In this document: piece by piece, positions 1 through 64,000 of the stretch
Position numbering within the stretch: position 1 is the first letter of the stretch
How the letters are laid out: each line of letters starts with the position of its first letter
Assembly (NCBI GenBank): GCA_031763025.1
Contig: JASSKH010000026.1
Location: 9,536,408-9,600,407 of the forward strand
Origin: Macrocystis pyrifera
Taxonomy: Eukaryota; Sar; Phaeophyceae; Laminariales; Laminariaceae
Length of the DNA stretch: 64,000 bases
Direction of reading: 5' to 3'
The notes under the pieces: generated by a model
Databases searched by the model: none
Told to the model about the DNA's origin: nothing
Seen by the model: only the letters and a program-made list of their open reading frames with translations
Translations under genes and position numbers: made by a program

Positions 1-1425
1 CACGAACAAGCCCAACCACTGCTGTTTGTACTCCGGTCCTCGATTCAAAATTATTTAATTGCAACGCTTTTTATGCTGTATTTTTTTTTCTTGTGCTGAT
101 GTGCATGATACCCTGATACGTATTTATACGAGCAGTGGGGAGTGTTGATTGCAGTACATATGAGGAACATCAGATTATCGAAATATCTACCTGACAGAAT
201 AAGAAAAATCATGAAAGAAAACCAAGATATCAAACTACAAAATATGTCAATCAAACCACGATTATTGTCAAGAAAACCAAAACAATAATACTGCTACGGT
301 ATAAACTACTACATACCTGGTAAATATATCAAAATGTCAGAATATCGAATTTTCAACATATAATAGTACAATCTTAATATTGAAATATCAAAGAGCAGCA
401 TGTTGACCTTGTGGTACTTTGTGACTCGGTGACAACGGAACTGTGCATCGCTGGAGAAATCAGAAGAATCTTCACAGATTCCACGTGTGCTGGATGCTGG
501 ATGCCGTTGGCGGTCAGTTGTTGAGTTGGAGAAACAGTTTACCTCTTGTGCTACATGCCACTATTTACCGACTTATACGGATTGTTTGGATATAATGTTA
601 ACATACAAGTGTTCATTATATGTAGGGATACAGAGTGGTACAGTAATTTCAAATGCTGCAAAACTGAATATGATCTGAACCCTGTGCTACAGTAATTCCA
701 GTTAGGAATAGTTTGTCCCCGAAACGCGTGTGCTTTTCGTCCAAAATGCTACCATATCAATATGAACCCCTTTGGAGCTTCACTTGATTGTAGTATCGAG
801 GAGACAAGTATCAAAAGTAAATGATGAGTTCGGCTTTAACCACAAAGATCAACGCCGATTGCTGGGTTGGGGCAAGTTTAAGACGGTATTTTGCCAGGGC
901 AATATGACCGCCTTATCCGGAAGCCGGCTTATTCATTCCAGGTTATGAGTGCAGTTCTCCAGTTGCGCCAAGCTTTTTTGACCGCCTTATATCGGGATCC
1001 CGCCTTGCTCGGACCGCACTATGGGGAGGACCCCTACTCTGTAGTGTTCGATATGGAAGGAGAATCGAGTGCGATACGATAATGACGAGCAAAAAAACTT
1101 CGGTAATGGAGGTCCGCGGCCGTAGCCAGCAGATACGTAGGGATGACAGCATCCGCGTCGGCGTCGAACGGAGCGAAACGTTCGCGAGACACGGCCTTCA
1201 TCCAGGCAGACGCTTTACCACTGTCGGAGGGGTTCGGGAAATCATACGCGGCATTCCCACGGGACAGCCGGCGGTCGCAGAACCCAGGGAAAGACTAGGC
1301 TAGAAGTTTGGGAATGATGATAAAGGAAAGGTACCCGCACGAGAAAGGATAAGAGATGATCGAGCGGCGACACTGAGATAAGAAAAGGGAAACAAGTATG
1401 GGTGTGACCTCATGCCGCAGCAGAG

Positions 1426-1878
1426 AGGCCTCATTGATCCCAAACTATATACGAATTAACCTACGACGCTATGTTACAACAGTAATCTCGAAGGAAGAAG
1501 AGAGGGGACGCCAGCAGGGCGAACCCCTCTTCGGAAAAAGCCTCTTGTTGTACTGGGAGGCAGTGGTTAAAGCCCACTCCGTGGTCGACACCGCAGCTCG
1601 ACAACAGCACGACAAAGTAGAAAGAGGCTAGGGAAAACAGACCATCCCGCCCGCCCGTCGTTGGTAGCGAAGTGTACCGTCGACAACGACATCAGTTGTT
1701 TTAGTGTGTATTTTACCGGGGTAGCTACTCTCTGCGACGACGTGCCGCGTTGATTGCCAGAGAATCAACGCGGGGGTAGTAACCCCGGGTGAGAGTCTCC
1801 GGCTGATCGCAGCAGGAGGCCTCATTGATCCCAAACTATATACGAATTAACCTACGACGCTATGTTACAACAGTAATC
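1426..1878. repeat. 62-bp direct repeats 391 bp apart
   Basis: The segment 1426-1487 recurs at 1817-1878 with no mismatch that I can see; both copies contain AACTATATACGAATTAACC and both follow a CGCAGCAG-like run. Such a pair could be terminal repeats of a small element or the result of a local duplication. The family is unknown. Confidence 0.7.
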
Positions 1879-1984
1879 GATACGATCGCGGTATGTGATA
1901 CCTGGTGTATAGTATACGAACAGTAGATTGAAGCTTTCGTTCAATGTCAGCATAAAAAAACCACAGGGATGCCAGGGGATGGAG

Positions 1985-2055
1985 GGCGAAAGACGATATT
2001 CGATACGATATTCGATACGATATATCGAAAGTTCGATATTTCGCGATACGATGTC
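1985..2055. repeat. CGATACGATATT short repeats
   Basis: Several close copies of a CGATACGATATT-like word lie in a row and create mirror-image frames on both strands. No function is visible. Confidence 0.5.
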
Positions 2056-2989: not shown

Positions 2990-3270
2990 GACAGATCATG
3001 ATTATCTATCTATCTATCTGGTTGCAGATGATCTAGTTCCTCGCCTGCCGTCGTGGGAGGTTGTGCAGGACCTGTGCAAGATCTGTGCATACAGTCTTTA
3101 CAGACCCAACCTAGGAAACATTTGCTGGATCATGCAGATTTTCGGGTCCCACCAGGCAACATGAGTTGAGATCATACAAGATCGGGAATAGATCTGCCTT
3201 GAAATATCTACAGCAGCAAACCATGAAGTGGGAATGATCTGTACATGATCTGTACATGATGTGGAGATGG
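2990..3270. repeat. Family F repeat (GATC-rich)
   Basis: Contains GATAGACAGATCATG, CATGCAGATTTTCGGGTCCCA and repeated GATCTGTACAT words. Related segments lie near 13.3, 21.8, 23.5 and 34.4 kb, so this is a dispersed family, very diverged. Confidence 0.5.
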
Positions 3271-3832
3271 TCTGTCCGAGGTGTGGCAGGATCGCCACTC
3301 GTCGTCGTTTTTTTTTGTTTGTCGCTATACCTGGACCCCCGAAAACCAAAGGAAAAGCCAAAACTACAAGGCGAGCAGACTGGGTCAAGCTCCCCTGCTG
3401 CTTATCTGCCCGAGAATACACAGCAAAAGACGCAAGAACGTTCAGTGCCAACTTGGTATTTTTACGGAGGGACCATGGTAATACATACCTGGTAGTAATC
3501 AGAACCAAGTATGGTTATCAAACACACGGGGATGTGTGGTTTTTTGGGTCCATCGTGGGTTCTAATCACTCACTATGTACCGCTCTGGCCGTAAATATAA
3601 GATAAGGAACGATTGATATTCATATTAATGACAAAACGTTCATTATATTTCAGATCATCAGAGTGGCATTACCATGGCCCCCCTCGAAATAATAATTTTG
3701 GGGGGGCTTGAGAGGGGGGAAAAAACTGACCGAAAATAATGACGATGATGATTTCGGTGTCGGCTGCACCAAGCAGCCCGGGCTTGTGGAATAGACAGGG
3801 GATGATACCTTTTTGGTGATGGAGCTGGGTTA

Positions 3833-4415: not shown

Positions 4416-5056
4416 ACGCGTGTGTGTGGCGAATGGTGCTTGCTCGAGCTGCTGCTGCGCGCTCAGTCATACCCTAGACGGTGGGTGGGCACTGTTGTGG
4501 TCCCTCTATGGAGCCGCTTGAGTAGTGGTGGTTGCCCGCTATATTGCTGTAGTGCGGGTGGAATCGCTTTGCACAGATGGGATTAACTATTAACCAGCGT
4601 GCCAGTGTGGTAGGGTGTGGAGTAGTTAGTGCCGGTTGCCGCTATATATATACCTGGTATATAGTGCCGGTATTGTTGACGGCTGTAGCGGATACCGTCA
4701 CTGTGCAGGGACCACTGACTGCTGTGTGCTGTCGTTATCGTACATTGTTGCTTTTTCGGTAGATTTTCCCCGGGTCCCAGAAGAGTTTTAGGAGGGGGAA
4801 AAAAGTGACCACAGTAAACGACGAGTACAATATTGGCCACTGCTTGCTTGGGTGTGTGTTTTGCTCATGTCTTGAATGGAGGGGGGGTGTTCGAAATATT
4901 TACGATGAACTACAGAGCTACTCAGTCAGCGCTGACTTAATAGCTCAGTGGTTTTAACCTGTGTAAACGAACAAAAGAAGTACCTTTGAGCTCGATACGG
5001 CCTCCCGCCGGTAACATCCTCCGGGGTTGATCGAGTCCCTAAACGAACAGGGGAGG

Positions 5057-5330: not shown

Positions 5331-5377
5331 CCTTTTACCAGTGCACTGTACAGACACCTAAACCTTACCTGGTAGTC

Positions 5378-5484: not shown

Positions 5485-5625
5485 ATAATATCAGATCATA
5501 TCATATTATAGTTTATCATATTCTATCATATAATATAATACCTGGTATACTTTATTATATTATATCATATTCTATCATATATAATATAACATAATATCAT
5601 ATCGTATCACATAATATCTTACGGA
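5485..5625. repeat. ATATCATATT AT-rich tandem words
   Basis: Near-pure A/T with repeated ATATCATATTCTATCATA words on both sides of a TACCTGGTA at 5539. Partly self-complementary. Confidence 0.6.
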
Positions 5626-6340: not shown

Positions 6341-6914
6341 TTGGAGAATCGGCACGGACACTGGTTGTGCTGGATGTCGACGGGTAGAAAGAACGGTTCG
6401 ATTCGAAAAACACAAACAGGGTCAACAGCAGTAGTAGTTTACCAGGTGGTAGTTTACGAATGTGTCGGATTTGTCGTTGAAGTTAGATATATGAACCCTT
6501 TCCGAAAAACTAAAAGGTCAACAATATATGAATAATAGTACGAATACTACCACAGATTGTAATTACGGGATGTGCCGTTGAAGTAGAAATACCTGGTATG
6601 AAATATGAACCCTTTCCCATATAGCCTCCTGTTGACCCTTTCGGTTTCATGTTGTTGCTTTTCTTCTTCGCCTGTTGTTGTTATTATTGTTGTTTTCTTC
6701 ACATTAAACCGTTCTTTCTACCCATCGACATCCAGCACAACCAATGTCCGTGCTGATTCACGTGGCACCTTGCGGTTGGCCTCTTGTATAGCTGTATGTA
6801 TTAATATGACATTTTTGTTGTTGTGTTGCGGGCGAGCGACTCGAAAAAATCGCGTTCAGTTTGTTGAACTTTGGTCGGCGCCTGATGATGATACGTTCCT
6901 TCAACACATCACTA

Positions 6915-8572: not shown

Positions 8573-11500
8573 GTGATGGTGATCGTGATGGTGATGGAGA
8601 TGGGGATGGATGGATGGATGGGTGGCACCGTGTTACTGTTTTCGTCTGGTTTAAAATTGGTAGTTTTGTTTCTGTCTACTCCGCGCTGGTTCATTGTTTT
8701 TTTCTTGTTACCCTTCTCTGGACGGAAATTTAAGGACCGCTGGTGTATAAATGTCAGTACCTATCGGTCCTTACGGCTCCATTCAGAGTGGTACATGGTT
8801 AACGATCAGCCGCCTACGTGAAAGTCAGTAACTCTAGCTGATATATATGTTGGGGGTTTCTCACTCGTGACAAGCTATTTTACCGTGCAACCTCCGGATA
8901 TATTTTTCTTTCTTCTTTTGGTTTTCGCAAATATAGACACACCTACTCCCTGAATTCTGCAGCATCTCAAGCAGATTTTTTCTTCCTCATAAACGGACTT
9001 CTACACCCGGCATGAGGCCGTGTGAAACCCGTAGTACGCGGGATCGAAGTATGACTATATAGTATACACTGTAGTATATAGTATAGTATGACACAGCTTG
9101 CAAAGATGATGAGATTCGACGAGATTCTCGATCTCACAGCTGTTGTTTTTTTCATTTTATAAATATAGGTAAGGGTCGTGAGTTGGCCGACTGAAAGCTC
9201 GCCGACTACTCATACTCGTAGTTTTTTTTTTCTCCGGCTAAGCATTGTTGTAGGTAGTTGGTTGCGTCCTTTGTTCGCGAAGGTCTGCTTCTTCGGTGTC
9301 TTGGCTCGAAGCGCGTATGTGGCTGGCTCGACGTGAGTATTTTATAGGTAAAAATCCACCATTCTGGTCGTGAACATAAGAGAACATTTTAGATGGCCGC
9401 AAAAAAAAGTCCAATCGTATCTTGTATTCCGAATCAGACTGCTGTTGAGTCAGTTGGTTGGCTGTATATTTTCGCCACCCGATTGATCCTTTCAGGACCG
9501 CGGCCCCGCTCTGGGGACAAACCACTCTATTTCCAAGTGGTTTGTCCTCAAAACGGGACTGCGGTCCTGAAAGGGTTTACAACCACCACTCTTGTCTCGG
9601 AAAATAAGACACGTTTATATTCAATAGTAATGCACAAACGATCCTTACACTTCGGGACATTGGTATTAGCCGGGAAGAGGCGTGCTGCGGCAGGGGTTGC
9701 GATGAAAAAGGATCACAATTTTTAGCCCCGCTGTTTTTCACTGATGGAACTCCCCAACCGAAGAGCTATATACCCAATATACATCGTTGGATCCAATGCA
9801 TGTTTTTCTTTATGTACCACTCTGTCCTCAAATATAGGCACCATTTCTACACTAATATTCAATACAGATGGTCATTTTATTTAGGGACAAGAGCTTCGAG
9901 ATCGACAGGCTGTAAGGGTGCCAAGGTGGACCATTCTACCCTCGGAAAGGGCTAAAAAGCTCTCTCTCGACCAGATTTTTTTTCCGAAAACGCTTTGTTC
10001 GGTATTTTGGTGGCAAACCTCCCCCTTTTTGGGGAAAAATTGAGCGCTCTGAAGAAAAAACGATCGCACACAACTCAACGCTCTTCACGGTTATTTTTTT
10101 TAATAAATTCGTGGCCCAAGGGATTGTGCGTCGGGCTTAGCTGAACCCTTTTTAGTGTAGATAACTTCAGTTCCATCTGGGGGGACAAACCCCTCAAATC
10201 GTAGGTATTAATATTGCGGGGGTCCATAGTAAATAGGACCAAATATTGTCAGTAGAAATAGGTAAATATATACCTGGTATGTTTTTATGTACACCATAGG
10301 TCCTGTTAACTATGGACCCCCGTAATAGTTTGCCCTAAAAACGGGACTGACTGCAGTCCTATTTACGGGGGACCTAGAGTAAATAGGACCAAATACTGCT
10401 AGTAAAAATAGTTAAATATGTAGTTTTTTGTGTGTAACGTAGGTCCTATTAACTATGGCCCTCCGTAATAACTGTCCTGAAAGGGTTGAGCCCTCTGGGA
10501 CTCTCAAGGTAGCGACCAAAAACGGAAACGTTGGTGACATCAGCTTTTTTTTTCTACTTGGTGGCGGCGTCAGCGCCGAGCGGTACGGTGAAAGGGTCAT
10601 GCCAGGCCGCGTGCGGAACGACGCCTTGCGTTGTAACTGGGGACAGCAGTGCTGTGTACCACCCCCCGTCACGCAGTGGCCGGTGCTGTATTCGCCACTG
10701 TGCGTTTTATCGTCGATTTTCCCCTCTCAAAGCCGATTTTTGGGGCTCCTCCTAGTGCCAAAATACCAGGGCTTGTCATGGTCCGGGCCGGGCCGGGCCG
10801 GGCCGGGAATGTTTGAGAATGTGATGGGCCGGGGAATTTTGAAAATATGATGGGCCGGGCCGCGGCCCACCAAAATAAAAGTTTGATGGGGCGATAAAAA
10901 ATTCGATGCGGCGGGCCGGGCCGCGGCCCATTGCGTGAAAAATTGATGTGCCGGGCCGGCCCATCAGCGTCGGCCCATGAAAAAGCCCCGGAAAATACCA
11001 GGGTCTGTGCGATGCGTGCAATATTATTGTCGAAGAACTTGTGCCAGTATCACTCTTGTCCCCAACGATATAGATATCATTTAAACTAAATATATATGTT
11101 AAGAAACGGTCCTTGTGTTTCGGTACATATTGGTAGAATCTTATGAGTACGTACTCGTACGTATGATGACGCGTTTTTTTTTTTTTTGTCTGGTTGTTTT
11201 TCTTCTGTCGCCGAAAGCGCCAAGAGGCGAGTCGGCTAATTTTTCATCTGATGGAAATCGACGAGTAGAGGGGATGTACGAGTAGGGGGGATGTTGAAAA
11301 CCCTGTACCATGTACGCGCGATGAAAGACGAAAGTGGTGGGAAGTACCGCGTGAGAGAAAGAAGGGCGTTTGGGATGTTCATCTCGTTCTGCGGGCAAAT
11401 GCTTACATTCACGAGCGCACAGCTTTTGCACGAGGACAGTGGGTCTTTTTCTGGGAGAGTGAGTGTTGGGGCATAGGGGTTGAACTGAAAATACTCGTAC

Positions 11501-14500
11501 AAAGTAGAAGTGGGGGCAGCAAAAAGAAAAGAAAAGCAGGACTGAGGAGCAGGTTATCACAATCCGACACCACAATCACCCATCAAGTTGGGAAAAATGG
11601 GGGAAAAGACTATTAGAGGCCGGGAACCGTTGGAGAGTAAAGTGTTGTTGTTCGTTGGTTGTAGAGGGAATCCGGCGTTTGGTGTACGTTGTAAAAACGA
11701 ACTTTACCTGGTATTGTTTTCGAAAACTCGTCCGGAAATCCCTCATCCCATTTTTTTAATTATTATTTTGATCTTTTTTGAAGTGTAGTGTCGTCTTTTC
11801 TTTTTCACCCACCCACCCACCAACCCCTCCCTCCCACCCCATCCCATCCCATCCCGCCCCGCCCCGCCCCGCCCCGCCCCGCCCGCCCTGCCCCACCCAC
11901 GCTCGCGCGATGGTATTTTTTTCTGTTCGTGTGTAGGGTGTTCGTGCTTATCCACAAGATGGACCTGGTGTCGGAGGATAGCCGAGAATCGGTCTTCCAA
12001 AACCGGAAGCAGGTCATAGCGGAGGCGAGCGGCGGCATCGAGTGCACTTTTTTCAAAACATCCATCTGGGATGAGACGCTGTACAAGGTAGGTCATAACA
12101 ATAATAGCGTTTTTGCCGCTTACAAGAAGTAAACTCCAATATTGGACGGAAAAAAGTGAGGACCGGTTGGTATTTTGGTGTTGATACATCATTCTCACAT
12201 CTGGTGTCGACGAAGGCTTGCGCCTGCAGCAAGCGTTTGATTTACGTTTCCTGGGAGGTGTCCAATGGCAAAAAAAAGAAGAAGGCTGCCGCTGGAGAAA
12301 AACAAACCCCCGGACCCCATCCCAATGTTCTTGGTGACAAACAGCTAGGAACTAGTGTGGGGTCGTTTTTGTAGCGGTGAGAGGGATTCACGCGTCGGGC
12401 AGACCAGATATATCAGATCCCCATTTCGTGACCAGATATATCAGGTCCCCATTTCGTGACCAGATATATCAGATCCCCATTTCGTGATAAGATAGATTAG
12501 ATCCCCGTTTCGTGTCAAATACATCAGATCCCCGTGTTGCGATCAGATATGTCAGATCCTCGTTTCTTGACCGGATAGATCAGATCCCCGTTTCGTGGTC
12601 AGATAAATCAGATTCCCGTTTCGTGACCAGGTAGATCAGATCCCCGTTTCGTGATCAGATAGATCAGATCCCTGTTTTTGTGATCAGATATTAGATCAGA
12701 TCCCCGTTCCGTGATCAGATACATCAGACACCTGCCTCGTGACCAGATATATTAGATCCCCGTTTCGCGACCAGATATATCAGATCCCTGTTTCGTTATC
12801 AGATAGAGTGTCGTGATCAGATAGAGCAGATCCCCGTTTCGTAATCAGATAGGTAAGATCCCCGTTTCGTGATAAGATAAAACAGATCTCCGTTTCGTGA
12901 CCAGATAGGTCAGATGCCCGTTTTGTGATCAGATAGATCGGCCCCCCGCTTTGTGATCAAATAGATCAGATTCCTGTTCCGTGATCAGATAGATCAGATT
13001 CTCGTTTCGTGATCAGATATATCAGAAACCAGCTTCGTGACCACATATATATCAGATATCCGTTTCGCGACCAGATATATCAGATCCCCGTTTGGTGATC
13101 AGATAAGAGCAGATCCCCATTTCGTGAATCATGTAGATTACATGTCCATTTCGTGGTTTGATAGATCAGATCATCAGATCCCAATTTGATAGATGTTTCG
13201 GGGGCTGATGTAAATAGGTTCCTGATTTGTGTATACTTCAGTTGTTGGATCGTGCGGGATCTACCATAGAGGATATTTGCACGGTGGGGTAGGGTCTATA
13301 TGACCACGGCTCTTGCGCACACATGTTGGCAGGGTGGGATCCGCGTTATCCGATTCTTGGAAGAGCATCTCGTAACCGAAAACATAGGGGATCTACGAGA
13401 TGATCCACTATGCAGTAGATCATAATATTGTTTGATCTGTAGATGATATTATTATTAATAGTATTATCTGCTTGTTGATGGTCTGGGTCCTAATATGTCC
13501 GCCGATGTATGGAAGGTTCAAGGCTGGCGGCGTGGCTTGAGGTCGACGGAGTGTCGGGCGCGGGGGGCGGTTGCGTGGGCGACTCGCTTCTTGTTTTGGT
13601 GGGGCGGCCGCGCGATGATTTGCGCCAGCTGTGTTGCTGTGTTGGTTTGGCTTGGCTTGGGCTGAGCTGGGCTTGGCTTGAGATGGGCTGGGCTGGGCTG
13701 GGCTGGGCTGGGCTGGGCTGGGCTGGGCTGGGCCGGGTCGGGCTGGGCTGGGTTGGATTAGGTTGGGGTTATCGGTTAGGTTTGGTTGGGTTGGGTTGGG
13801 TTAACGCAGGAGATGGGTTGACGGCGCGGGTGCCCGCGTATATATGTGACGTTTCTGTCCACGTGTCCAACAAAAAAGCACACACGACATGCCTACGTTC
13901 GATTCCTTTTTCGAGTCTAGTCGCAGACGCAACACACCCCGCCGTGCTGGGTACCCTCGGCGTTCGATGGCCCGGCAGGCGTGGTCGTCAATTGTGTACT
14001 CCCTCATCCCCGACACGGAGGCCCAGCGTGATATATTACACTATGCGATTTATTCTATCGTAAGGCCGGTATATTTTTGTGATACCTGGTATCATATCAT
14101 ACCATATGAACGTAACGGAGTACTTTGGTATGCTGGTAGTGTCGTACGTTTTTGTGATATTATATCGATCTCTCCTGTGCGCCCTCCTTCGTATCTGATG
14201 GCCATTGTATGATATCCCTGGTATATCACAACGGTATGATACAACGTGCTACTCAATGGAACTAAACGATACGATATGACATTGTATCGTGAAAGGATAT
14301 CGGACCTCATACCATACCACACATCCTGATATTGTGACAATGTTGCGATATGATACCGACCCTCTGCTGTGTACCCTCTCTGATGCCACGGCAGGCATGG
14401 TCGTCCATCGTGTACTCCCTCATCCCCAACATGGAGGTCCTCGAAAGCCACCTCCAGAGCTTCTGCGAGATTTGGTGAGAAAGCGAGGATTTTGGTTTTT

Positions 14501-17500
14501 GGTGTAGCGGCCTCTTCCGCCAAGGCATGTTCACTCGCACCCTCTTTCATTCGCTGATTTTTTCCCCCACTAAGAACTGAGACCAAAACTGCTGTGGAAG
14601 AGTTCCTGCCCCATTTAATCTTCTTCTCCAAAAATTAGACGTATCGTATCAATATTATTTATTGCGGCTCGGTAATAGTGATGATGGTATCCTAATATAA
14701 CGCTTTCTGCACGAGTAGCCACTCGCTGTGTGGCGACTCGAGTGCTGCGCCCGAACTGTTGTTCTGTTCCTCCTCTCTCCCCACCGAAAATATGTTTGGG
14801 GTGTATAGGGGGGGGGTGTACTCGGTAGAAGAGATGTACTCATTACCATGCATGGCCGTAGTCGTATGACCATAGACCCTCGCATCCCTACAATGCCGGG
14901 ACGGAGCATGTCGGCGTTTCACATGGGGGGGGGGAGGTATACTCATTATCATGCATGGCCGTAGTCGTATGTCCATAGACCCTCGCATCCCTACAATTCC
15001 GGGACGGAGCACGTCGGGTTTTCACTGACCGGGCAGACATTGCTGCACCAAGCGCGAAGCGCCGTGAGGGGGGGTGTACTCGGTATATCATGCATGGCCG
15101 TAGTTGTATGGCCATGGATCCTCGCATCCCTACAATGCCGGGACGGAGCACGTCAGGTTTTCACCGACCAGGCAGACATTGATTGGGGGGCGCGTAAAGA
15201 AACAACAACCAGCAGAAAAACAGCAACGGTGCTAGCCTGACAGCTGCGGTCGTGCCTCCTCGTCGTGTGGGCTTCCATCTCTGCTCCGAAGTTCGCTGGT
15301 CCTCCTGGACGATGATTTCTCTGAGCACTGCCCACCACGGGCTATATACGGTCACGCTTTTTCGAGACAGTATAGAGCTATGCCGATCTCTCCTTGCCAA
15401 CAGATACCTGATACGTAAAACGTTTCCTCGTGAAGTCTAAATACCTGGTATATTCTAAAGTATATACCTGGTATTATCATACCTGGTTTACCAGTATAGT
15501 TTAAAACAACATACAAAGCTTGTGTGATCGAAACATATTCCTCAAAAATCATCTCTGCGAGCTTGGTGTGGTTACGTCCAGTAGACCGCGCTTGGTATAT
15601 GCGGGGTGTATACGGCAGATTTATTTAATACTGTTCGTTTTTTCTTGTGTGTGTGTTGTTCAGCGGAGCGGAGCGGACGAAGTGGTTCTCTTCGAGCGAG
15701 CAACGTTTTTGGTGATAGCCCACGCGACGGAGGTACCGCACGAGGACCAGCACCGGTTCGAGAAGATCTCCAACATCGTGAAGCAGTTCAAGCTGAGCGT
15801 CAGCAAGACCAGCCTGGAGTTCGAGGGCATGATGGTGAGTGAGAGTCGTATCCAGCATTACCTATGGTGTGAATAGCCCCATGGTCCGAAAGCGTACAGT
15901 ACCTATTTTTGAGCGTAGCCTGTGATATAGAATACCTGGGGTACCTGGTACGAGGTATACCATGAGTACGTACGGGTATAGTGTAAGCAAGACCAGCCTG
16001 GAGTACGATGATTATGCGGCGACGTTTCGTAACGATTTCGGCATGGGCAGAGCTGCCGTTTGCCCTCGGTCACAGCAGTTGAGGCGGGGTTTGGCCCCTT
16101 GACTGGCCGCCTCCTTATATACACTGAAAATACTACCGTATCACACGGGTGATAAGATAACACCCCCCTCGAACGAGCTTCAGTGCTGGTCAATGGGAAA
16201 GGTGCAAACGCCGAGCGATGCGTCTGTCTATGGAAAGAGATCTCGTCAAGATTTTCCCAGAGCCTATTCCGGGGGACCATAGTAAACAGGACCAAATATT
16301 GTCAGCAAAAATTGGTAAATGTATAGGTTTCTGTGTGTAACGTAGGTCCTACTTACTATGGTCCCCCGCAATATTTTGTTGGTTGTGTGTACCCCCCCCT
16401 GGGACTGGAGAAATTTTGCTTGCCTTCTGTGCACCTTCATCGATCATTCAAGATAAGTATTGGATCAGTTGAGGCCTCCTCTGCCCCGAAGCAGGGGGGG
16501 CTCACCCGGGATTAATTACCTCCTCACGCTGAGTGCGTGCCCTGCGCTTTGGCGATCCCGGCCGCAAATGACTACAAACGCAGAAACTGCTGTTGCATGC
16601 TGAGGTAGGTGTAGATGTGCTTCAGTTTATCGACATCTATTATTCTTTGCTTATTTATTTTTTTTCCCGAGATATTCTCCCACTCTTTTTTTTTTCCCGA
16701 GATATTCTCCCACTCCAGAGAGGTATTATTGGACCCTGTCCTGCGACCACGGACTACATTGTATTGTGGCGATGAGTTATCAATAGTGTGAGAAAAACTA
16801 CAACTCCGTATACGGTTTAGCCGGGCGGGTGAGACGGTCAGAATTCTCCATCAAAAGCCTCGATGGTATCGCTTTTAGGTGCGTTGAAAAAGATAATGTT
16901 CTCGTGACCACACCTTCGACCAGTAGTTTCGGATTCAACAATCGGTTGACTCTCGACTTTGCTTGGGAAATCCGTCCCATCGGGTGTGTTATCTAGCGTG
17001 GTATATGACGCTGTAGTATCGTACGAAAGACCTGCAAAAAATTGTCACACCCGTCGAGCCGACGCTCGCGCGCACCACCCGCGCGCCGAGCCCTCTCACG
17101 ACCGGCTCCTGTTCGAGGCGCTGTGTGGACTCATCCCACGGGAGGGGTATACCGGGGTTTTTTTTTGCCTTCTGAGGCTATATAGTTTGACCGGTTGCGC
17201 TCCTCAAGTGAGCAACTACCGGCTATATACAGTAGTATGATACTTTTAATATCAAAGTATGTTTTTAGGACTACGTACATACCAGGTAGCGCGTAGAAAG
17301 GTTGGTCGAGTTGCGCGACAAACAAATCTTCAAAGTCATGTTTCGGGTGATATCTCTAGCTCCTCCCCATGTGACGAGAACAGAAATTAGGGCACCAGTC
17401 CTACGGTGGTATTGCTCTGGTCCCTCGGGGCGGTAAGCGCGAGATGCTTCCACCCGCCCCCCCCCCCTCCCTCCATATGCAAGCAAAACCCCCTCCAAAA

Positions 17501-22555: not shown

Positions 22556-22692
22556 TCAGGAAAGTTAAATTTCGCACAACATGGAAAATAATATTTATTT
22601 TCACACAATATGGAAAATAATACTAGGTACCAGTAGATATTATCTACCAGGTATTATTTTCCATATTGTGTGAAATTTAACTTTCCTGATTT
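22556..22692. repeat. Long inverted repeat / hairpin
   Basis: AGGAAAGTTAAATTTCGCAC at the left pairs with GTGTGAAATTTAACTTTCCT at the right; inside, TTTCACACAATATGGAAAAT pairs with ATTTTCCATATTGTGTGAAA. A TACCAGGTA lies at 22645 near the centre. It could be a MITE or a hairpin made by inverted duplication. Confidence 0.85.
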
Positions 22693-26170: not shown

Positions 26171-27037
26171 CGTCCCACCTCGCTCCCCCACTCCCCTTCC
26201 TTTCCCGGCCGGCCGAGACACTCCCCTTCCCTGCTCCACCGGCCGCCATCCCACCCTGAAGCCAAAAACGCCTCCAAGCATTTCGAGCAAAACCCTGTTC
26301 GTGCTATAATAGGTACCTGGTATTACTTTTTTTTGTTGGGGTAATGTTGTGGCGTCTGGGCGACCGCTGATCGCCCACCTCGCTTCACCCCCCCCCCCCC
26401 CTGCCCGTCTGGCTGCTGAGGTCATTTTGCCCCGACCCAATGAAGCCAAAAACGCCTCCAATCACATGGAGCGAAACCCTCTTCGTATTACATACAGGCA
26501 TATCTGCAACTCATTTTTTGTTTCTGGACTATACCAATGATCGTTCCGACTGAGAAGGGGTGTGATGTTTTTTCGACGTCCGGGCCGTCGTCGAAGGTGG
26601 CAATTCTCCCTCCCTCCCCGTCCCAGCGAAACCAAACACGCCTCCAATCGCTTCGAGTGGAACCCTCTTCGTACGGCGTACCTGGTACTGATGCATCTGC
26701 AATTAAGTTTGTTCGTATTCTGGGTAACCACTGATCGCTCCGGCCGACGACAACTGTGATGTCGCCTTTCCTCCGTGGTTCAGCGGAGCTAAAAACGCCA
26801 TCCAAGCCTTTTAAGCGAAACCCTGTTGGTATTGCCTCACGCGTGTATTACGAACTCGGATTATATTTTGTTTTCTGGGTTACGACAGATCGCTCCGGCC
26901 GAAGAGGTGTGTTATGTCGCCATTCCTCCCCGGTCCAGCCAAGCCAAAAACGCCTCTAAGCCTTTCGAGCGACACCCTGTTGGTAATACCCTACAGTACG
27001 TGCGTATTACAAACTCGTTATATTTTTTGTTTCTGGG

Positions 27038-45589
<18,552 letters not shown>

Positions 45590-52300: not shown

Positions 52301-54997
52301 CACTACACAGAGGCGGCCGGTCTATACAGCAGTACAATGCGCTTCTTGAAATTTCAGCAAAATATTTCGATTCCTGAAAACAATACTCGTACGTGGTACG
52401 TTTTTCCCCCCACGGTTTGGGCACGAATCTTTACTGTAGTTTTATGTTTTTTGGAAAACAGCCCTGATGTAGCCTGCAGACGATATAATCGTGCGTCGTA
52501 TGTCAGCAGTATATCAATCATATATATATATAGTATGACAAACACACAACTTGCGACTACTATGGGGGTTCATAGTAAATAGGACCAAATATTGTTAGTA
52601 AACATAGGTAAATATATTGGTTTTTATGTATACCATAGGTCCTATTAACTATGGACCCCCGTAATATGAGGTTCGACGAAATCCTCGATCTCACAGCTGT
52701 TGCGTTTATTTTTTACGCGTAAATATGTACCAGGTATGTTTTCTCGTTTTATCGTATCATATACCAGGTACCTAGTATATTCACTGGAAGTGTTTCTTGG
52801 AATACCATGCAGTACGTCGTAGTGATCCTCCGAGTAGGGTATGCATTCCAGCCATGGCCCACGCCCAATCCTAACTGCTGGTGTGCTCCGCGAGAGCAGC
52901 GCGATCGTATGATAAAAGATCGGTGTTGTGAGCTTTTTTTTTCGCGATCCTGGACGACGTGCATCGAGTGAAATAACGGGGGCTGTGTCTCAGTTGGCTC
53001 ACCATAAATCGCGGACTAGTTATTCGTTGGCTACTAATAGGTATCAAAGGTAGTTGCGTCCGACGATGTGTGGCGTGTACATCTTGTGTGTCTGACTGAC
53101 GTGTTCGTGGCTCGACATGTGTTTTTTATTGATACGATACTATCAATAATAAGTCAACTACAGCAGTTGGGTTACTTGGCCACCCAACTACAGAAATAGC
53201 TGCCCCTGTCGATGAACAAGGCATGCCTTATCCACAGCCCTATTACGGAGGGCCATAGTAAATAGGACCTACGGTACACACGAAAACCAATACATTTTCC
53301 TTGTTTTTACTAACAATAGTCGGTCCTATTTACTACAGCACACTATGGTATGGCCCCCCGTAATAGTTGGCGTACTTACTAGTAGCCACCCAACTATTGC
53401 CCAGGCTTTTCAGTGAAGCCCAGCCAAGGGATATATGCCTTACTCACAGCTTCCAGTTGGCCTACTGCGCTACGCAACTACAGTAGTAACTATCAGGTAG
53501 TAAGTAGCCTTTATCAATGAAGTCCAGTCACGGCATGCCTTACTCACAGCTCTAGTTGGCGTGCTTCGCTATCAAACTATCAGGTAGTAAATAGCCTTTA
53601 TCGTGAGGTCCAGACAAGGCATATGCTTGCTCACAGCAGTCCTGGTTGGCTTACTACGCCACACAAGTAGTACTTACTAGAAACGTGAAGTCCGGCCGGA
53701 GGCATGCGTTACTCACAACGCCAGAAATGACAGGGGACCGATTCCATTTGCGACTGCCATTCCAATCGGTGTCGTACTTGATATGGTGATGATGTTGATA
53801 TTTTGATGATAATCTTACGATGGTGATGATGACGATATTACCACGTTCAGCCTATTTCCCCGAAATGTCGCCCGTCGTCACAATATCCTTGCAGATGGCG
53901 CTCATGCGGACCCAGCTGAAGTCGGTGGCTTCGGCTGCTCGCAGCGGGCCACAGAGGTACGCCTCCATGGTGTCGAACGTCGTCGACATTCCTAAACCCC
54001 AGGAGGCTTTTTTGGAAGAGATCGACAACGGCAGGGACACGCCGTTCGTGCCCCGCATCAGGGACAAGCCTAACGCTGTGACGCCCCTCGACCTCACGCC
54101 GGTGAGGTTTGTGTAGAGTGGTGGTTGTGCGACTTTTTCCGAGCGGGTTTGTTCGCGTATTGTTTTTTCTTTCTTCTCTTTTTACCACTACTGTGGATAG
54201 GATTCTAATCTTAACCCTCGACCCCATCGCCGGTAAGTTTGTTCTGTCCCGAATTATAAGGTTCGTTTCTATCCTTATATTAAATAAAAAAAGGTCCTAT
54301 AAATCGAGCCATAGTGGCACCCGGTACGGGTATATATGCCTAGTACACCAGGTATATATATGTGATATACCAGGTAGGTGGTTGTGCACCGTTTTTCAAG
54401 CGTATTTTTTTTCTGTCGGGTGGCGTGGAAGTTTTTAGCCCTTGCATATGCTGCAGTGCAGAAATTATGAAATCATGGTGCCAAGTATTGATAAGTCTCA
54501 TCCCAAGTGAGTATGTCCACGATAAAGTGCGTGAAGATTTTACGGACGTTTTTGTAGCCCTTTTACGACTTACTATCGGAAAACGTTATCCCACTCTAAT
54601 TCCAAGTAATTTTCCCCCAAACGTGGATGCGGTTGTGGAAGGCTTGGAGGGTTGGGGGTTGGGGGGTAGGAGAATTTTTTGTAAGGGTAACAGAGTTTTG
54701 TTTCCTTGGAAAATCAAGAAAAAAAAAGGCTCACGCTTTTAGCTCGCGCGCCCTCATTGTTAGTAGTAGACGGTTCCTGAGACCGCGCTTCTCGGTATTT
54801 AGTCGTTGCTGTGGTTGTGGTTGGCTACTGGTTGCTGGATGCTTGGTGTTGCGTGAGCACCGTTGTCTGGGGGGAAAGTTTATCGAAAGCACACCTGTGC
54901 GGTTCTCTTGTCGAACGCCGCTGCCTCTCCCTTCTCGAACATCTCTACCCATCTCTTGTGGAGAACCCCGCCCACCCCTCTCTTATCGAACACCCCT

Positions 54998-58979: not shown

Positions 58980-61900
58980 TCCTCATGTACTGATGTTCAT
59001 GCAGGACCGTAGTCGTATGACCATAGACCCTCGCATCCCTACAATGGGGGGGCGGGGATTGAAGATGGGAGAGGGCGGGAGAAGAAGAAGGGGGGGGGGG
59101 GGGGGGGCAGGGTCTTTTAGTCTGGCTGATTGGTTGATTCGATGGAGAATCGGGTGGCTTTGTGGGGGCGTGGCAAGAGGAGGAGGAGGAGGGGGTGGGG
59201 GTATGATTCATGTTTCCTTTGTTGCGGCGTGCTGTTGTAACACTCGGTTATTCTGCTTGCATCGCTCGTTGTCCGTGATCCTCAAACTCACCGCCTTCGA
59301 AGGACCAATGGTTGATGGTAGCGGCGGCGGAAGCGACGGGTAGCAATGCCTATATTATTGGATTTTCCTGCTTTTCTGCCTCTTCTCCTTTGCTTCTCCT
59401 CTGCCCTCCTCTTTCTCCTTTTTGCGTTTTCCTTTTGGAACGGTCTCACTTTTTTCTTGCTTGAGGTGTACGATGTGCTTTGGTTGTGATGTGTATCGTG
59501 TACCACTGCGTTGTGTTTTTTTTTCATCTTTCGTCTTTCTATTTTTCCTGGGGTAGTCATCCATTCCAGAGTTTTTTATCCTATTACGGACTAGATTGTT
59601 GGCGACGAGTTCACGTGAGAACAGCAACGGCAACAACACCAACTACGTTATATGCCAGGACCCTACCGTAGTTTTGTTTACCTTATCCCTCTGTCTCTCA
59701 CTGTTTTGTCTTTCGTTTTGGCAGAACCTTCCAGGGCGTGGTTTGCCTGATGCAATTGTCGACCAGGGAGCGAGACTACATCGTGGACCCTCTGAAGCTG
59801 CGGAAGGAGATGGGGAGGCTGCTGCCGGTGTTCACGAACCCCAGCATTGTGAAGGTGGGGGCGTGGCGGCTACGATAGCGTCGAGTCGATTTTAAGTTGT
59901 TGCAGTCGTTTTTATTGGGTGTTTTCTTTGTTGTCACCTTTTCGAGATCACTGCGTTACAGCGGATGGTATAGTAGCGGTAATGGGTGTCGGCTACAGCA
60001 CTACTGCTGTGGCATTCATATTTGTTAGTCTTTCTTGCGGTGGGGAGCAGTTCGAATAGTAGCAGTAAATACATTTTTCGTCATGGAACGGTTTTCGTGT
60101 TCTTCTTGGTAAGTATTCGTAAGGAACAGGCGTTTTTATGCGAGGGATTCGTGTCCTTCGTCCCCCTTTGTCCGAGTTTCTCACCTACCAGGTACCTGTT
60201 TTCTGTTATTCTTGTTGACCAGGTTTTGCACGGATCTGACCAAGACGTTCTCTGGCTCCAGCGAGACCTCGGACTGTATATTGTCAACTTGTTCGACACG
60301 GGTCAGGTACGCATGATATTTATTGCTCGTCCGACAAGCAACACGGGTGATAGGATGAGGCAACCCCCTCGGTCGAATTTCCAAGCTGATTTTTCTCGGC
60401 AATGGGGAAAGTGCATACGCCGAGAGATGCATGCATGTATGCGAATATCTCGATGAAACCTTTCGAAGGCCACCCTTTGTCGTGGAGAAATCGGCTCAGA
60501 AATCAAGTCCAGGGGGGGGGGGTTGTTGTTGTTGTATTTTTACACGTGTCACACGGTTTCAATACGTACGACATCAACACTTTTTGCTGTTTATCCGTCG
60601 CAAGCACGTACTTGGTGCGTACGTACGTGAGTACGTATGTATACTGGAAACGATTGTATCATACGATACCCGCGCTTCTTCGGCGCCCCCCCCCCCCCCC
60701 CCGTCCCCCCCGTCCCGCGACCAACACGCCCACGCAGTGTCTATTTTTTCGTGGCAAACACGTACCACTCTGTCTCGAAATACAAGTACCCCTGAAGTTG
60801 AACTAAAAGTTGAACTTGACGTTGCTTCAACCTCAGCGTTGTCCTCAACCTTGAGCTTGAATATGTACTTGTCCTAAACTGTAACCTTGACCTTACCTTG
60901 ACCTTGTTCTTAATTTCAACCTTGGCCCTACCTTGACCTTGACCTTGTCCTTGACCTTACCTTGACCTTTTTCTTGACTCTAACGTTGACCTTGCCTTGG
61001 CCGTGACCTCGACCTTGACGTTACCTTGTCCTTATTTTTTGTTAACTCTAACCTTTAACTCAACGCTGGCCTTGACCTCGACCTCGTCCTTGTTTTTAGG
61101 TATAGCCTTGACCTTACCTTGACCTTGACTATGTCCTTGACTTCGTCCTTGACCTCGACTATGTCCTTGACTTCGTCCTTGACCTTGGTCTCAATCTTTA
61201 TTTTCCACAGGCGGCGCGCCAGTTAAAGCTGCGGTCGTTCGGTCTAGCCCACCTGCTGCAGACGTTTTGCGACTTCTCCCCGGACAAGAAGCACCAGCTT
61301 AGCGACTGGCGCATGCGACCGCTCCCGGCAGACATGCTCAAGTGAGTGCTGCTGCTGGTGCTGCTGCTGCCACCGCCGCCGCCACCGCCGTCTTTCACTT
61401 GTGCTTGCACTTGATGGTGTAGGCAGTGGTTGGGAGGACTTTGGGCCGCACGGTCGTCCTATTTCGTTTATGTTGCTTGTTGTTGTTGTGTTTTTTTTTT
61501 TTTAAACTGTGTTCTCGTTGCTGTTGTGCGTACTACTGCTGTATGTGTTTTATTTTCCTAGTGATACGTATTATACCGCAGCGAACACACGAACACCAAA
61601 AACGCACAAGCACACCTACACCACACCCACAGCGCCTAAGCAAGCACACTCTACACAAAACGCACCCACCCGACACACTACCACAACATACAAACACCCA
61701 CCCACCCACACAAACAATCACCCACCCACACGCCGACAATCCCACAACCTCCATGATCTATCTGTTGGTGGCACATGCTCGCTGGCCTGGACTTGCACTT
61801 TCACAGATCCTGCTCAACATATCATGATGGCGAGTTCAGACCTACAGTGCAGTAGATGTACGGTAGATTGTGCTCTGTCCTGAGTCTGCAAATCGCCCAT

Positions 61901-64000
61901 TCACCCGCCCAGATACGCCCAATCGGACACCCACTACCTCCTCTACGTCTACGACCGCCTCCGCGCCGACCTCGAGCGCGCCGGCGGAGACGTTGCCGTC
62001 AAGGCCGTCCTTGACGCGTCGCGAGAGATATGCCTCCGACGATACGAGAAGATGGTGTTCAATGAGAAGGGCTGGGTGGCGGTGCTGAAGAGGGGGACAG
62101 GGAGGGAGGAGGCGGAGGAGCTCGGCGACTTGCCCAAGAGGGTGTTGTCTGCTTTGTGGGAGTGGAGGTGGGTGGGAGTTGGCGTTGTTGGGGTTGGCGT
62201 TGGGGGGGGGGGGGGTGATCCCAGGGTTAGGGTAAGGAGGCGTGCTACGATAGGGGTAGCACTTTTTTGCCTTCCAGGGGAAATATTTTTGACCAGCCAG
62301 GCTCCTTAACCCAATATCGTTGGAATGCCGCGAGTGTTTTTCAACATTATTGTTCTTGAGATACCTACTGTTCGTCGAATTTGCCCTTTTAGCTCTTCTC
62401 ATCATCAGGTGTTAGTCTAGTGCAGGTATTGAACTTGTAGAGCTCCTTAGGTGAGGAGCCTCTGAAAAATCAGGAGCTTCCCGTACCCTAGCAGGCTTCT
62501 TTGAGGAGGGGGGCGAGGGGGCAAGGGGGGGCGGGGTGTACTCGATAGGAGAGATGTGCTCGATCTCATACATGGCCGTAGTCGTATGACCATAGACCCT
62601 TGCATCCCTACAATGCCGGGACGGAGCATGTCGGGCTTTCACCGACCAGGCAGACATTGCACCAAGAGCGAAGCGCCGTGAGGTGTCCGGCGAGTCGCAT
62701 GAAGGGTGAGCTGCATCCTACTAAGAACCGCTTGTGAGGCGGACTTGTATATGGATGACAGCTTCAATGCGCTAATTTAATTTGGGGAGGAGGGGGGGGG
62801 TACTCATTCTCATGCATGGCCGTAGTCGTATGGGGGGGGGCAGCATAGAAAGTCGGCGAATTGCGGTGGAACGTGCTGTCCGGCTTGTGAGATTGGAGAT
62901 GCGTACGCGTAGTGCGGACGACTGGTGGTAGTGGAGGGGGGGTGAGGTAGGGTTGAGGTCGGGGTGGGTTCGGGGAGGGAGGGGAGGGGGGGGGTGGGGG
63001 ACTTGCCAAGGAGGGTGCTGTCCGCCTTGTAGGATTGGAGGTGCGCAATGGGGGGGCAGGGTGGGGCGGCAGGGGGGGGGGGGGGGGGGGGCGTACTCAT
63101 TTGTTGCTTGCCTTAGTCATTTGACCATTGACCACGCATCCCTTTCGAGACGGAGCACCGGGGGCGGCAGGAGGGGGTGGTCATTATCGCCTCAGCGCGT
63201 GAAGTGCCCGCAATTGTGGGTAGTGTCCACCCGGCTTGGGCGTGTCGTTACGCGTTGTACGTTGTATTTCCGCTATTCCCAGTGTTTTTTGTTTCTGTTT
63301 TTGTCTCGGAAGGAAAGCTAAACGACAGCCGTCGATACCATGTACTGTACTTGGTAGTATACCTGGTACCGGTATACGTTTTCAGTCACCTTCGACGACG
63401 TGGTCGAATCATCACGCTGCACGAGTATATCTCCCCCCCCTGTCGCCGTTATTTCGTGCGGGCAAGAAGAAGAAAAATTAAAGAACGCAAATAAATCGAC
63501 ATACCACTCCGCCCGGAAGTGTAAGAGCCCATCTTAACGGGGAACACTGAATTTCGTTCAATCAGATGCAAATTAAATTAGAAAAAAAAAAATCAAGTCA
63601 AACTGAAAGAACCGAAAGTCCTCGATAAGATGGGCCCTAAGGAACCGCGTTGTCCGGAAATGTTAGGACCGTGTTGATATTCACATTACCACTCGAACGA
63701 TTCTAAAATTTCCGGACATAGTGCTATCCACCTAACTATTGTTGAGAGTAACTACTGTACATGAATACCTTGACGGTTCTAACATTTCCGAATAGAGTTT
63801 TATCCAGCGAAATACGTATTGTTATTCGAATTTTCTCTCGTTTTTTTTTTGTTTCTTTTTTTCTTTTCGCGCTCCTCTCTCTACAGGGACCGCGTCGCCC
63901 GTGCTGAGGACGAGTCCCTGGGTTACGTGATGTCCATGTACGTGATGATCCGGGTGGCGAAGAGGTGTCCCACCACCCGCGACGAGCTGGAGGGGTGCGG
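49176..64000 (+). CDS. EXOSC10: Exosome exonuclease RRP6/EXOSC10 gene, 3' end outside window (11 exons seen)
   Basis: Exons: 49176-49349, 50476-50637, 51257-51340, 53895-54101, 56053-56205, 58676-58931, 59725-59854, 60223-60306, 61211-61341, 61913-62167, 63887-64000. About 580 codons are in the window of a family of 730-890 residues. Order of parts: N-terminal PMC2NT region ([16 protein letters not shown]), the linker [20 protein letters not shown] and [16 protein letters not shown], then the DEDD-Y exonuclease with [10 protein letters not shown] (first Asp, Glu), [20 protein letters not shown] (second Asp) and [16 protein letters not shown] (Tyr and Asp), then the HRDC domain ([16 protein letters not shown]). 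All catalytic residues are present. RRP6 trims and degrades nuclear RNA with the core exosome. One frame inconsistency lies in a G run of exon 6. Confidence 0.95.
49747..49857 (+). mobile_element. MITE-1 copy in RRP6 intron 1
   Basis: TATTACGGGGGACCATAG ... CTATGGTCCCCCGTAATAG; both ends perfect, TA on each side. Confidence 0.92.
50476..50637 (+). CDS. EXOSC10: RRP6 exon 2
   Basis: Acceptor GGTTCCAG, donor CAG|GTTCGG. Encodes [20 protein letters not shown] to NAADPECFQ (the FPEF corresponds to FPGF of human EXOSC10). Confidence 0.9.
51257..51340 (+). CDS. EXOSC10: RRP6 exon 3, GC donor
   Basis: Acceptor CGCCGCAG; donor CAG|GCAAGG, a GC-AG intron. Encodes [28 protein letters not shown], a PMC2NT helix. 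Confidence 0.82.
51665..51905. mobile_element. MITE-2 copy, near full length
   Basis: About 240 bp: ACACGCAAGATAAAACATCC at left, middle GAGCGATGCGTCTATGG, right end GGGGGGTGTTATCTTGCGTG, inverted with respect to the left end. Confidence 0.65.
52031..52322 (-). mobile_element. SINE-like repeat with tRNA-like head, copy 2
   Basis: On the minus strand: A-box region TGTAGTGGTTA (near 52305) and B-box GGGATTCGAATTCC (near 52262), body with GGAAAGAGCGAGAACGTGAG, GACGAGCAGTGGGAATGCTG and CACGGCTTGTCCAG. Position 33 of the anticodon loop is not T, so not a working tRNA. Confidence 0.65.
52558..52666 (+). mobile_element. MITE-1 copy
   Basis: CTATGGGGGTTCATAG ... CTATGGACCCCCGTAATA. Serves as the reference without TACCTGGTA for the 10.2-kb copy. 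Confidence 0.88.
53150..53725 (+). repeat. About 100-bp tandem repeat (5 units)
   Basis: Units contain GAAGTCCAG, AAGGCATGCCTTACTCACAG and AGTTGGCGTACTTCGC ... GTAGTAACTA. One unit is split by a MITE-1 insertion. In an RRP6 intron. Confidence 0.8.
53241..53365 (-). mobile_element. MITE-1 copy with proven TA target duplication
   Basis: Inserted in a tandem unit: CACAGCCC-TA-[TTACGG...CGTAA]-TA-GTTGGCG, against the empty unit at 53.55 kb CACAGCTC-TA-GTTGGCG. The element itself is 53243-53363. Confidence 0.95.
53895..54101 (+). CDS. EXOSC10: RRP6 exon 4
   Basis: Acceptor CCTTGCAG, donor CCG|GTGAGG. Encodes [20 protein letters not shown] to [20 protein letters not shown], matching human FREKIDNSNTPFLPKIFIKP. 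Confidence 0.93.
54593..54633. repeat. Family D partial copy
   Basis: CACTCTAATTCCAAGTAATT then TTCCCCCAAACGTGGATGCG. Confidence 0.55.
54999..55037. repeat. 39-base C run after short CCCACCCCTCTC units
   Basis: Preceded by four diverged units with CTCTTGTCGAACGCC / CTTATCGAACACCCCTA; similar units recur at 55.86-56.0 kb. Confidence 0.8.
55508..55536 (+). repeat. GAGCTCCTTAAGTGAGGAGCC palindrome copy
   Basis: Second copy of the small palindrome first seen at 7.88 kb, followed by TCAGAAAAAATAGG. Confidence 0.6.
56053..56205 (+). CDS. EXOSC10: RRP6 exon 5
   Basis: Acceptor CCCCTAG, donor CAG|GTGACG. Encodes [20 protein letters not shown] to [18 protein letters not shown], matching FAHPYQYELNHFTP. 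Confidence 0.92.
56445..56853 (+). pseudogene. Exon-like pair of unknown origin inside an RRP6 intron
   Basis: An open segment ([20 protein letters not shown] to [10 protein letters not shown]) ends at a GAG|GTATAC donor-like site at 56644; after TTTGTTTTAG it could continue [20 protein letters not shown] to a stop at 56853. RRP6 skips it by homology. The 5' end contains a 32-bp near repeat (GGCGCAGCTGTATCACCCCTG / GGCGCAGCTGCATCATCCCTG). Paralogue of 17.06-17.4 kb. Not recognised. Confidence 0.4.
57655..58215. repeat. CTG/CAAGCGCTGCTG-rich repeats
   Basis: Clusters of GCTGCTGCTG and of a GCAAGCGCTGCTGC unit of about 15 bp around a non-repetitive core (58000-58140). It yields Cys-, Ala- and Leu-rich frames that I do not regard as exons. 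Confidence 0.8.
58676..58931 (+). CDS. EXOSC10: RRP6 exon 6, first exonuclease motif; one-base inconsistency
   Basis: Begins [20 protein letters not shown] and ends [14 protein letters not shown], donor AG|GTGAAT. The two halves are in different frames: the length is 256, while 257 (or 254) is needed. The change falls in a G-rich run at about 58842-58887, next to an acidic SDSSSDEE stretch. A miscounted homopolymer is the simplest cause. Confidence 0.9.
58943..59050 (-). mobile_element. Family B 3' end with 29-base G run
   Basis: G run at 58951-58979, then CATGTACTGATGTTCATGCA, GGACCGTAGTCGTATGACC and CTCGCATCCCTACAATG. Just after the exon-6 donor. Confidence 0.75.
59725..59854 (+). CDS. EXOSC10: RRP6 exon 7
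   Basis: Acceptor TTGGCAG, donor AAG|GTGGGG. Encodes [26 protein letters not shown] to FTNPSIVK. Confidence 0.95.
60223..60306 (+). CDS. EXOSC10: RRP6 exon 8, second exonuclease motif
   Basis: Acceptor GACCAG, donor CAG|GTACGC, 28 codons: [28 protein letters not shown]. Holds the second catalytic Asp. Confidence 0.96.
60333..60555. mobile_element. MITE-2 copy
   Basis: ACACGGGTGATAGGATGAGG, CCCCCTCGGTCGAATTTCCA, CGCCGAGAGATGCATG, CGATGAAACCTTTCGAAGG, right end GGGGGGG...TTTTTACACGTGT. Confidence 0.6.
60820..61200. repeat. (CCTTGA)n hexamer repeats
   Basis: About 60 diverged CCTTGA/CTTGAC words, ending directly at the exon-9 acceptor TTTCCACAG. Confidence 0.9.
61211..61341 (+). CDS. EXOSC10: RRP6 exon 9
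   Basis: Encodes [20 protein letters not shown] to [12 protein letters not shown]; donor AA|GTGAGT, the two bases completing Lys with the next exon. Confidence 0.96.
61913..62167 (+). CDS. EXOSC10: RRP6 exon 10, third exonuclease motif
   Basis: Acceptor CGCCCAG, donor AG|GTGGGT. Encodes [31 protein letters not shown] and ends [10 protein letters not shown]-x3-D closes the DEDD-Y active site. Confidence 0.96.
62438..62466 (+). repeat. GAGCTCCTTAGGTGAGGAGCC palindrome copy
   Basis: Third copy of the small palindrome, followed by TCTGAAAAATCAGG as at 55.5 kb. Confidence 0.6.
62500..62838 (-). mobile_element. Family B element plus a second 3' end
   Basis: A copy at 62520-62785 (GTACTCGATAGGAGAGATGT, CATACATGGCCGTAG, AGCGCCGTGAGGTGTCCGGC, AAGAACCGCTTGTGAGGCGG) followed at 62787-62838 by another G run and TACTCATTCTCATGCATGGC. 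Confidence 0.8.
63068..63165 (-). mobile_element. LINE 3'-end fragment (family C)
   Basis: About 20 G, then CGTACTCATTTGTTGCTTGC and CATCCCTTTCGAGACGGAGC. Confidence 0.85.
63887..64000 (+). CDS. EXOSC10: RRP6 exon 11, HRDC start, cut by window
   Basis: Acceptor CTCTACAG. Encodes [38 protein letters not shown]; human EXOSC10 has RDKTARREDESYGYVLPNHM here. The exon runs past the window edge. Confidence 0.95.

Follow-up and report, generated by a model that had tools for sequence, protein, structure and literature searches.

The nine-base word TACCWGGTA, scattered through the genome of the kelp Macrocystis pyrifera, is most likely a footprint left by the excision of a TA-inserting, cut-and-paste DNA transposon, once chance background and the copies multiplied by other repeats are set aside. 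We demonstrated that the word arises as a gain of seven nucleotides, TA becoming TA-CCWGG-TA, at a TA and not at an adjacent AA. This insertion at TA is established by counts with a denominator, by an AA control inside the same repeat and by 22 distinct events. That the inserted element is a transposon is what we infer, since the source element was not found.

The window, i.e., the whole stretch of 64,000 nucleotides that was analysed, is C207:9536408–9600407 in a Macrocystis pyrifera assembly of 537,376,219 bases in 223 contigs, on which all genome-wide counts were made; the published reference is described with 537 Mb, 223 contigs, and a GC content of 50.37% (PMC10498591). Local statistics come from a small sample of 204 kb, made of the window and 14 sampled 10-kb stretches, and the GC fraction is 0.46–0.54 across the sampled stretches. 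Six stretches of one contig (C1, L080–L085), picked for word pairs, were excluded from the 204-kb counts.

Three genes can be followed in the window. The RagA gene lies on the + strand (8.4–18.7 kb by coding score), with exons 11938–12087 and 15664–15834 passing the PF04670 search; its exon 14383–14475 has a degenerate duplicate just upstream, at about 13.95–14.03 kb by eye. A DUF1995 exon occupies 31335–31610 on the − strand, in a gene whose extent, from the coding score only, is about 23–33 kb. Finally, EXOSC10-like exons lie on the + strand at 49–62 kb, with PMC2NT and 3'-5' exonuclease matches that are both below the cut-off. A 3.8-kb stretch (40001–43800) is nearly free of C on the + strand (C 68 and T 2,211 out of 3,800) and is followed by a G-rich tract up to about 44.55 kb. 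An Rfam search gave no match.

The initial annotation had counted about 27 exact copies of the word in the window, for a chance expectation of about 0.5. All 27 coordinates that it listed match exactly (Table 1), and shuffling gives the same expectation (0.50, sd 0.69, maximum 3 in 100 shuffles). With the arrays masked, 26 words remain against 0.4 or 0.96 expected (order-3 and order-4 Markov models, respectively). The word is the top enriched dispersed 9-mer of the window, simple repeats set aside, and the top enriched 9-mer of the sampled genome, CAG repeats apart. Genome-wide, TACCWGGTA is found 121,279 times, including copies multiplied inside other repeats (the C1 repeats, L080–L085), whereas the reversed word is found 2,421 times. 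The C/G-centred form TACCSGGTA is found 12,109 times, against 2,024 for its reversed control. In the 204-kb sample, these two words are present at 74 and 4 places, the related word TACCGGTA at 19, and the reversed TACCWGGTA at 0.

Table 1. Copies of the putative scar word TACCWGGTA in the window, with the MITE-1 copies used for comparison.
Feature	Position	Basis
Putative scar word TACCTGGTA	314..322	exact match
Putative scar word TACCTGGTA	3486..3494	exact match
Putative scar word TACCTGGTA, within TATATA tract	4651..4659	exact match
Putative scar word TACCTGGTA	5366..5374	exact match; L099 paralog with 7-nt gap and two adjoining single-base gaps
Putative scar word TACCTGGTA, AT-rich palindrome	5539..5547	exact match
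Putative scar word TACCTGGTA	6590..6598	exact match
MITE-1 copy with putative scar	10212..10329	sole exact-word carrier among 35 MITE-1 matches in 236 kb
Putative scar word TACCTGGTA in MITE-1	10271..10279	gain of 7 nt over 7 of the 11 paralogs in the same orientation
Putative scar word TACCTGGTA, RagA intron	11705..11713	exact match
Putative scar word TACCTGGTA, RagA intron	14083..14091	exact match
Putative scar word TACCTGGTA, RagA intron	15442..15450	exact match
Putative scar word TACCTGGTA, RagA intron	15465..15473	exact match
Putative scar word TACCTGGTA, RagA intron	15942..15950	exact match
Putative scar word TACCAGGTA, RagA intron	17280..17288	exact match
Putative scar word TACCAGGTA, hairpin-like repeat	22645..22653	exact match
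Putative scar word TACCTGGTA	26314..26322	exact match
Putative scar word TACCTGGTA	26679..26687	exact match; array-unit comparison not clean
Putative scar word TACCAGGTA	27739..27747	exact match
Putative scar word TACCTGGTA	29027..29035	in paralog L092 too; other paralogs lack it and have irregular gaps within TA-rich sequence
Putative scar word TACCAGGTA	38097..38105	exact match
Putative double scar TA-CCAGG-TA-CCAGG-TA (words 38774 and 38781)	38774..38789	exact match
Putative scar word TACCTGGTA	47909..47917	exact match
Nearest MITE-1 paralog without the word, read as empty site	52557..52667	paralog comparison
Putative scar word TACCAGGTA	52728..52736	exact match
Putative scar word TACCAGGTA, followed by TACCTAGTA	52762..52770	exact match
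Putative scar word TACCAGGTA	54368..54376	exact match
Putative scar word TACCAGGTA	60186..60194	exact match
Putative scar word TACCTGGTA	63360..63368	exact match

The shape of the word is strict. As first described, it is palindromic around a central A/T: all 27 centres are A or T (T 17, A 10, C/G 0). When the spacing between the two halves is varied from 0 to 14, TACC-N1-GGTA alone is enriched (27, against 0 to 4 elsewhere), and 27 of the 127 CCWGG sites of the window are flanked by TA on both sides. The earlier count of six one-mismatch copies was too low, as 36 are found, 13 of them being TACCTAGTA in an array. This tandem array of 10-bp units (33791–33986) carries TACCTAGTA, which closely resembles the scar word. 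The words had also been said to avoid the recognised exons, and indeed none of the 27 falls in these 2,802 bp, an absence that says little, as chance would place only about 1.2 words in them. A splice-related strand bias, considered because the window opens with 12 words of the T form, was rejected: counted by hand in gene sense, the words in the three genes of assigned strand are 7 T and 8 A.

The word had further been claimed to be gained between paralogous repeats. This holds for the MITE-1 copy at 10271, which exceeds 7 of its 11 same-orientation paralogs by exactly 7 nt and the other 4 by 4–6 nt. It does not hold for the pairs 17280/56.7 kb and 26679/26.9 kb, which align at about 69–70% with scattered gaps and are not clean. 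The comparison of 5366 with L099 gives a 7-nt gap at the word and two single-base gaps beside it, for a net difference of 5. More generally, a paralog spanning the word site was found for 29 of 91 sampled words (comparisons for 10271 and the match of 5539 to itself being excluded), and the paralogs devoid of the word mostly present irregular gaps.

The MITE-1 terminal repeat offers a target that can be counted over the whole genome. Its 17-mer CCATAGTAAATAGGACC is present uninterrupted 27,181 times, and the same string with CCWGG and a second TA inserted at its third TA is present 114 times, the reversed control giving 0. An identical insert at the AA directly upstream in the repeat, with AA doubled, was found 0 times genome-wide. 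The scar rate at this TA is thus 0.42% (114 vs. 27,181), or 0.39% once 8 redundant loci are removed, and for the genome as a whole the number of words is 0.39% of the number of TAs, the latter extrapolated from the 204-kb sample. We read 30 of the 114 loci and compared their flanks, by script where at least 20 bases were at hand and otherwise by eye. Nine of them (L100–L107 and L133) derive from one duplicated event and the other 21 differ in their flanks, giving 22 distinct events, with T at the centre of 12 and A at the centre of 10. Twelve MITE-1 copies carry TAAATACCWGGACC, in which the insert lacks the second TA (L111, L113–L115, L117, L118, L120–L124, and L128, of which L122–L124 are near-identical to each other); the insert is of the CCA form in 11 and of the CCT form in L118. 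These copies may stem from a different outcome of repair or from the amplification of one sub-family.

These results bear on two explanations in which no element of this kind is needed. The word could belong to longer repeat families, or be amplified with them, and some copies have spread in this way, such as those of the C1 repeats L080–L085 and the scarred MITE-1 copy found at nine loci. The doubles TACCWGGTACCWGGTA go in the same direction: there are 5,620 of them genome-wide (control 0), for about 950 expected under independent insertion, and among the matches listed they lie on small, repeat-rich contigs, some at regular spacing, and many may thus be duplicates. As a general account, however, we judge such spread very improbable: in the 204-kb sample the enrichment is limited to the nine bases, with no longer common flank, and one single target has received 22 events with distinct flanks. 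The second explanation, a near-palindrome that a dimeric protein binds and that selection has spread or maintained, would suit the palindrome, its A/T centre, and its single spacing, as well as the clustering of sites and the centre base shared by neighbours. It leaves unexplained, however, a clean 7-nt insertion in the terminal repeat of a transposon at 0.42%, for 0.39% predicted, and one-mismatch neighbours are in excess; we give it as little credence as the spread by repeats.

In the excision reading, the sequence of the word would reflect the ends of the element. The element would begin with CCAGG (or CCTGG) and end with the complement, and its transposase would cut the two strands with a stagger of five bases. 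Each flank would keep a CCAGG-type overhang, and the two overhangs would anneal through CC/GG around a single A-A or T-T mismatch at the centre, which repair would resolve to A or T with about equal chance. The T/A centres of the 22 events (12/10) are consistent with the last step, and the CCWGG held between two TAs would then derive from the element ends. The reconstructed empty sites (n = 73) define a target R-TA-Y with AT-rich flanks; counting both strands of 74 words, the base following TA is C or T in 123 of 148 cases, against 14,378 of 23,393 for any TA. The word TACCGGTA has the same preference (34 of 38 over both strands of 19 sites) and appears by eye as a clean insertion in L140; it is possibly a shorter joining product of the same process. 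Other words running from TA to TA are enriched about twofold or more in the 204 kb, namely TACAGTA (81 vs. 34), TACCGTA (64 vs. 27), and TACGTA (198 vs. 98 expected at order 3); some of these may be shorter joining products and some simple repeats.

Two patterns count against this model, because random repair of the mismatch predicts neither of them. Neighbouring words agree in their centre base in 14 of the 15 pairs less than 500 bp apart, a set that may include local duplicates, in 16 of 23 pairs at 0.5–2 kb, and in 11 of 22 beyond. Moreover, on the + strand of the assembly, T is in excess at the centre of the sampled words (T 46, A 27).

Once formed, the word looks like a sequence that decays by mutation. 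In the local sample, 80 one-mismatch copies, for 34–38 expected, accompany the 74 exact ones, so that decayed copies exist, as for an unconserved sequence. Under a model of steady formation and neutral decay with equal substitution rates, the ratio of C/G- to A/T-centred words is predicted at about 0.077, and the observed value is (12,109 − 2,024)/121,279 = 0.083. For the local one-mismatch excess, however, the constant-rate decay model predicts approximately 74, more than the roughly 44 observed. A low scar rate over a long period suffices. The initial annotation had proposed a very active TA-targeting element: insertion at TA is borne out and the scar reading fits best, the source element was not found, and the high activity is unneeded, since a modest jump rate over a long time gives an equal number of scars.

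We searched for this element in several ways. In 236 kb, inverted pairs of TACCWGG with significant terminal repeats were not found, the best inverted half-site pair having an expected number of 0.19 over 456 pairs. Repeats interrupted by a resident element were sought genome-wide as ATAGTAAATACCWGG with A, C or G as the next base, a design that an element with T as next base would escape. Among the 29 places obtained, 21 lie in MITE-1 and 8 outside (by eye), and none holds a full element; all 21 MITE-1 cases run on into MITE-1. They comprise decayed scars of the form TACCWGGCA (L151, L152, L155, L156, and L158), a six-base variant TACCAGGGTA (L110 and L126), TACCWGGACC in twelve cases, and a few other continuations. 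The PF13358 (DDE_3) search gave 0 matches, as did the PF01359 (Transposase_1) search, in which the control was silent as well, and the PF03184 (DDE_1) search gave 39. Four of these 39 DDE_1 loci (L159–L162) were read and rejected as source, with no TACCWGG inverted ends, in stretches of 4.5 kb to whose edges L161 and L162 align, so that the element ends are not reached there. A candidate full element at L088 (783–2250, ends matching at 19 of 24 positions) was also discarded, being of low complexity and with no transposase-like frame by eye.

Many scars with few copies would be expected of an element that moves strictly by cut-and-paste and has long done so at low copy number, its scars coming to far exceed its copies. 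A stronger version of this idea, which we advance tentatively and hold to be rather unlikely, is a hit-and-run element that is removed nearly every time, has stayed for long at near-zero copy number in the sequenced haploid gametophyte, and cuts five bases apart. It is suggested because the one target tested presents 114 scars and no resident copy. Such an element could persist either by strictly conservative transposition or by a removal tied to the life cycle, and its five-base cut inside the ends would be unlike the relatives described in the papers cited here. The unseen full copies could also be accounted for by abortive integration, in which the ends are joined to TA and the host trims the element close to its ends before completion, leaving only end nucleotides and no full element at any time. 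The TA, the target preference, and the end-derived letters fit this equally. However, we cite no precedent for it, uniform 5-nt products demand regular cutting, and the MITE-1 of this genome shows the usual pattern of excision, with full copies as well as an apparent scar. Abortive integration is thus improbable, and we retain excision.

Indeed, MITE-1 provides an analogue within the genome. Its copies read TA-TTACGGGG...CCCCGTAA-TA and are abundant (35 matches, some partial, in 236 kb). The word TATTAATA is enriched about 20-fold in the 204-kb sample (76 vs. 3.5 expected, both strands), with 38 sites, of which 16 are in the window between 5843 and 57194. The base following TA is G in 35 of 76 TATTAATA words and in 16 of 26 MITE-1 right ends, for a background of 4,419 in 23,393. 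From this enrichment and this bias, TATTAATA is probably the scar of MITE-1. Both systems thus share a TA target and a word enriched between two TAs, of four bases for MITE-1; they differ in that MITE-1 copies are abundant and that its preferred next base after TA is G. Pieces resembling kelp and bearing MITE-1 are also found in bacterial MAG contigs of the g1/g2/g3_MAG series (L021, L035:1-2053, and the starts of L059 and L046). L021 is reverse-transcriptase-like by eye and the other pieces are joined to bacterial-looking sequence; they are likely host contamination or chimeras. The exact word is absent from these pieces of four MAGs, but the pieces are too short for this to count, and the other 49 loci beside them have no similarity to the window. 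Two scans of viral contigs (one without result, ten loci of the other without match to the window) and a search of phage records with one window repeat gave no match.

Tc1/mariner (IS630) elements are recognised by inserting at TA and duplicating it, which is what we observed at the MITE-1 repeat. Footprints of Sleeping Beauty have the form TA-CWG-TA. The kelp word is alike in the duplicated TA, in the letters held between two TAs, and in a central A/T ambiguity such as a mismatch would give; it differs by its five bases (CCWGG) instead of three and in that its source element and transposase were not found. The three-base cut and footprint described for Sleeping Beauty and mariner (PMC7827188) thus do not describe the dominant kelp word. 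The 3-bp TWA-type duplication and mostly precise excision of PIF/Harbinger do not correspond to a 7-nt gain with TA duplicated, nor do the TTAA target and seamless excision of piggyBac correspond to a TA target where 7 extra nucleotides stay. Stowaway MITEs and plant Mariner elements, as described in PMC4561436, are alike in their 2-bp duplication, and their footprints hold end sequences, as those of the kelp element would. In rice, Mariner insertions are reported to outnumber excisions about 2.6–2.8 to 1, and 8 of 94 putative excisions, a set not restricted to Mariner, to be "perfect" (PMC4423477); in contrast, the kelp has one dominant scar and no full copy seen. TA-targeting elements are expected in brown algae, since Ectocarpus is reported to have 17 Mariner-Tc1 families with almost 12,000 copies, together with MITEs (PMC12477816), a likeness by description of brown-algal Tc1/mariner elements accompanied by MITEs; the terms "excision" and "footprint" have 0 occurrences in that paper. 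The kelp scar can be placed no closer than a resemblance to Tc1/mariner, as the searches yielded neither element nor transposase and the footprint has five bases. In the literature searched by word in full text and by topic, we found no report of a TACCWGGTA scar: among the matches listed, none for TACCTGGTA concerned algae or transposon scars by title, and TACCAGGTA was in none of those listed for kelp and transposons.

The footprints that excision leaves are, as a rule, uncommon and diverse by-products of transposition, whereas the kelp genome holds one uniform scar, 121,279 times, which outnumbers the full copies seen. The scar shifts the reading frame by its 7 bp, and its A form adds CAGGTA, which could act as a splice donor. 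A TA-targeting transposase with a five-base cut is indicated, and it might serve as a tool. Lastly, the scars constitute an abundant class of 7-bp markers for kelp genetics, and they make the history of transposon insertion and removal measurable per TA, at about 0.4%.
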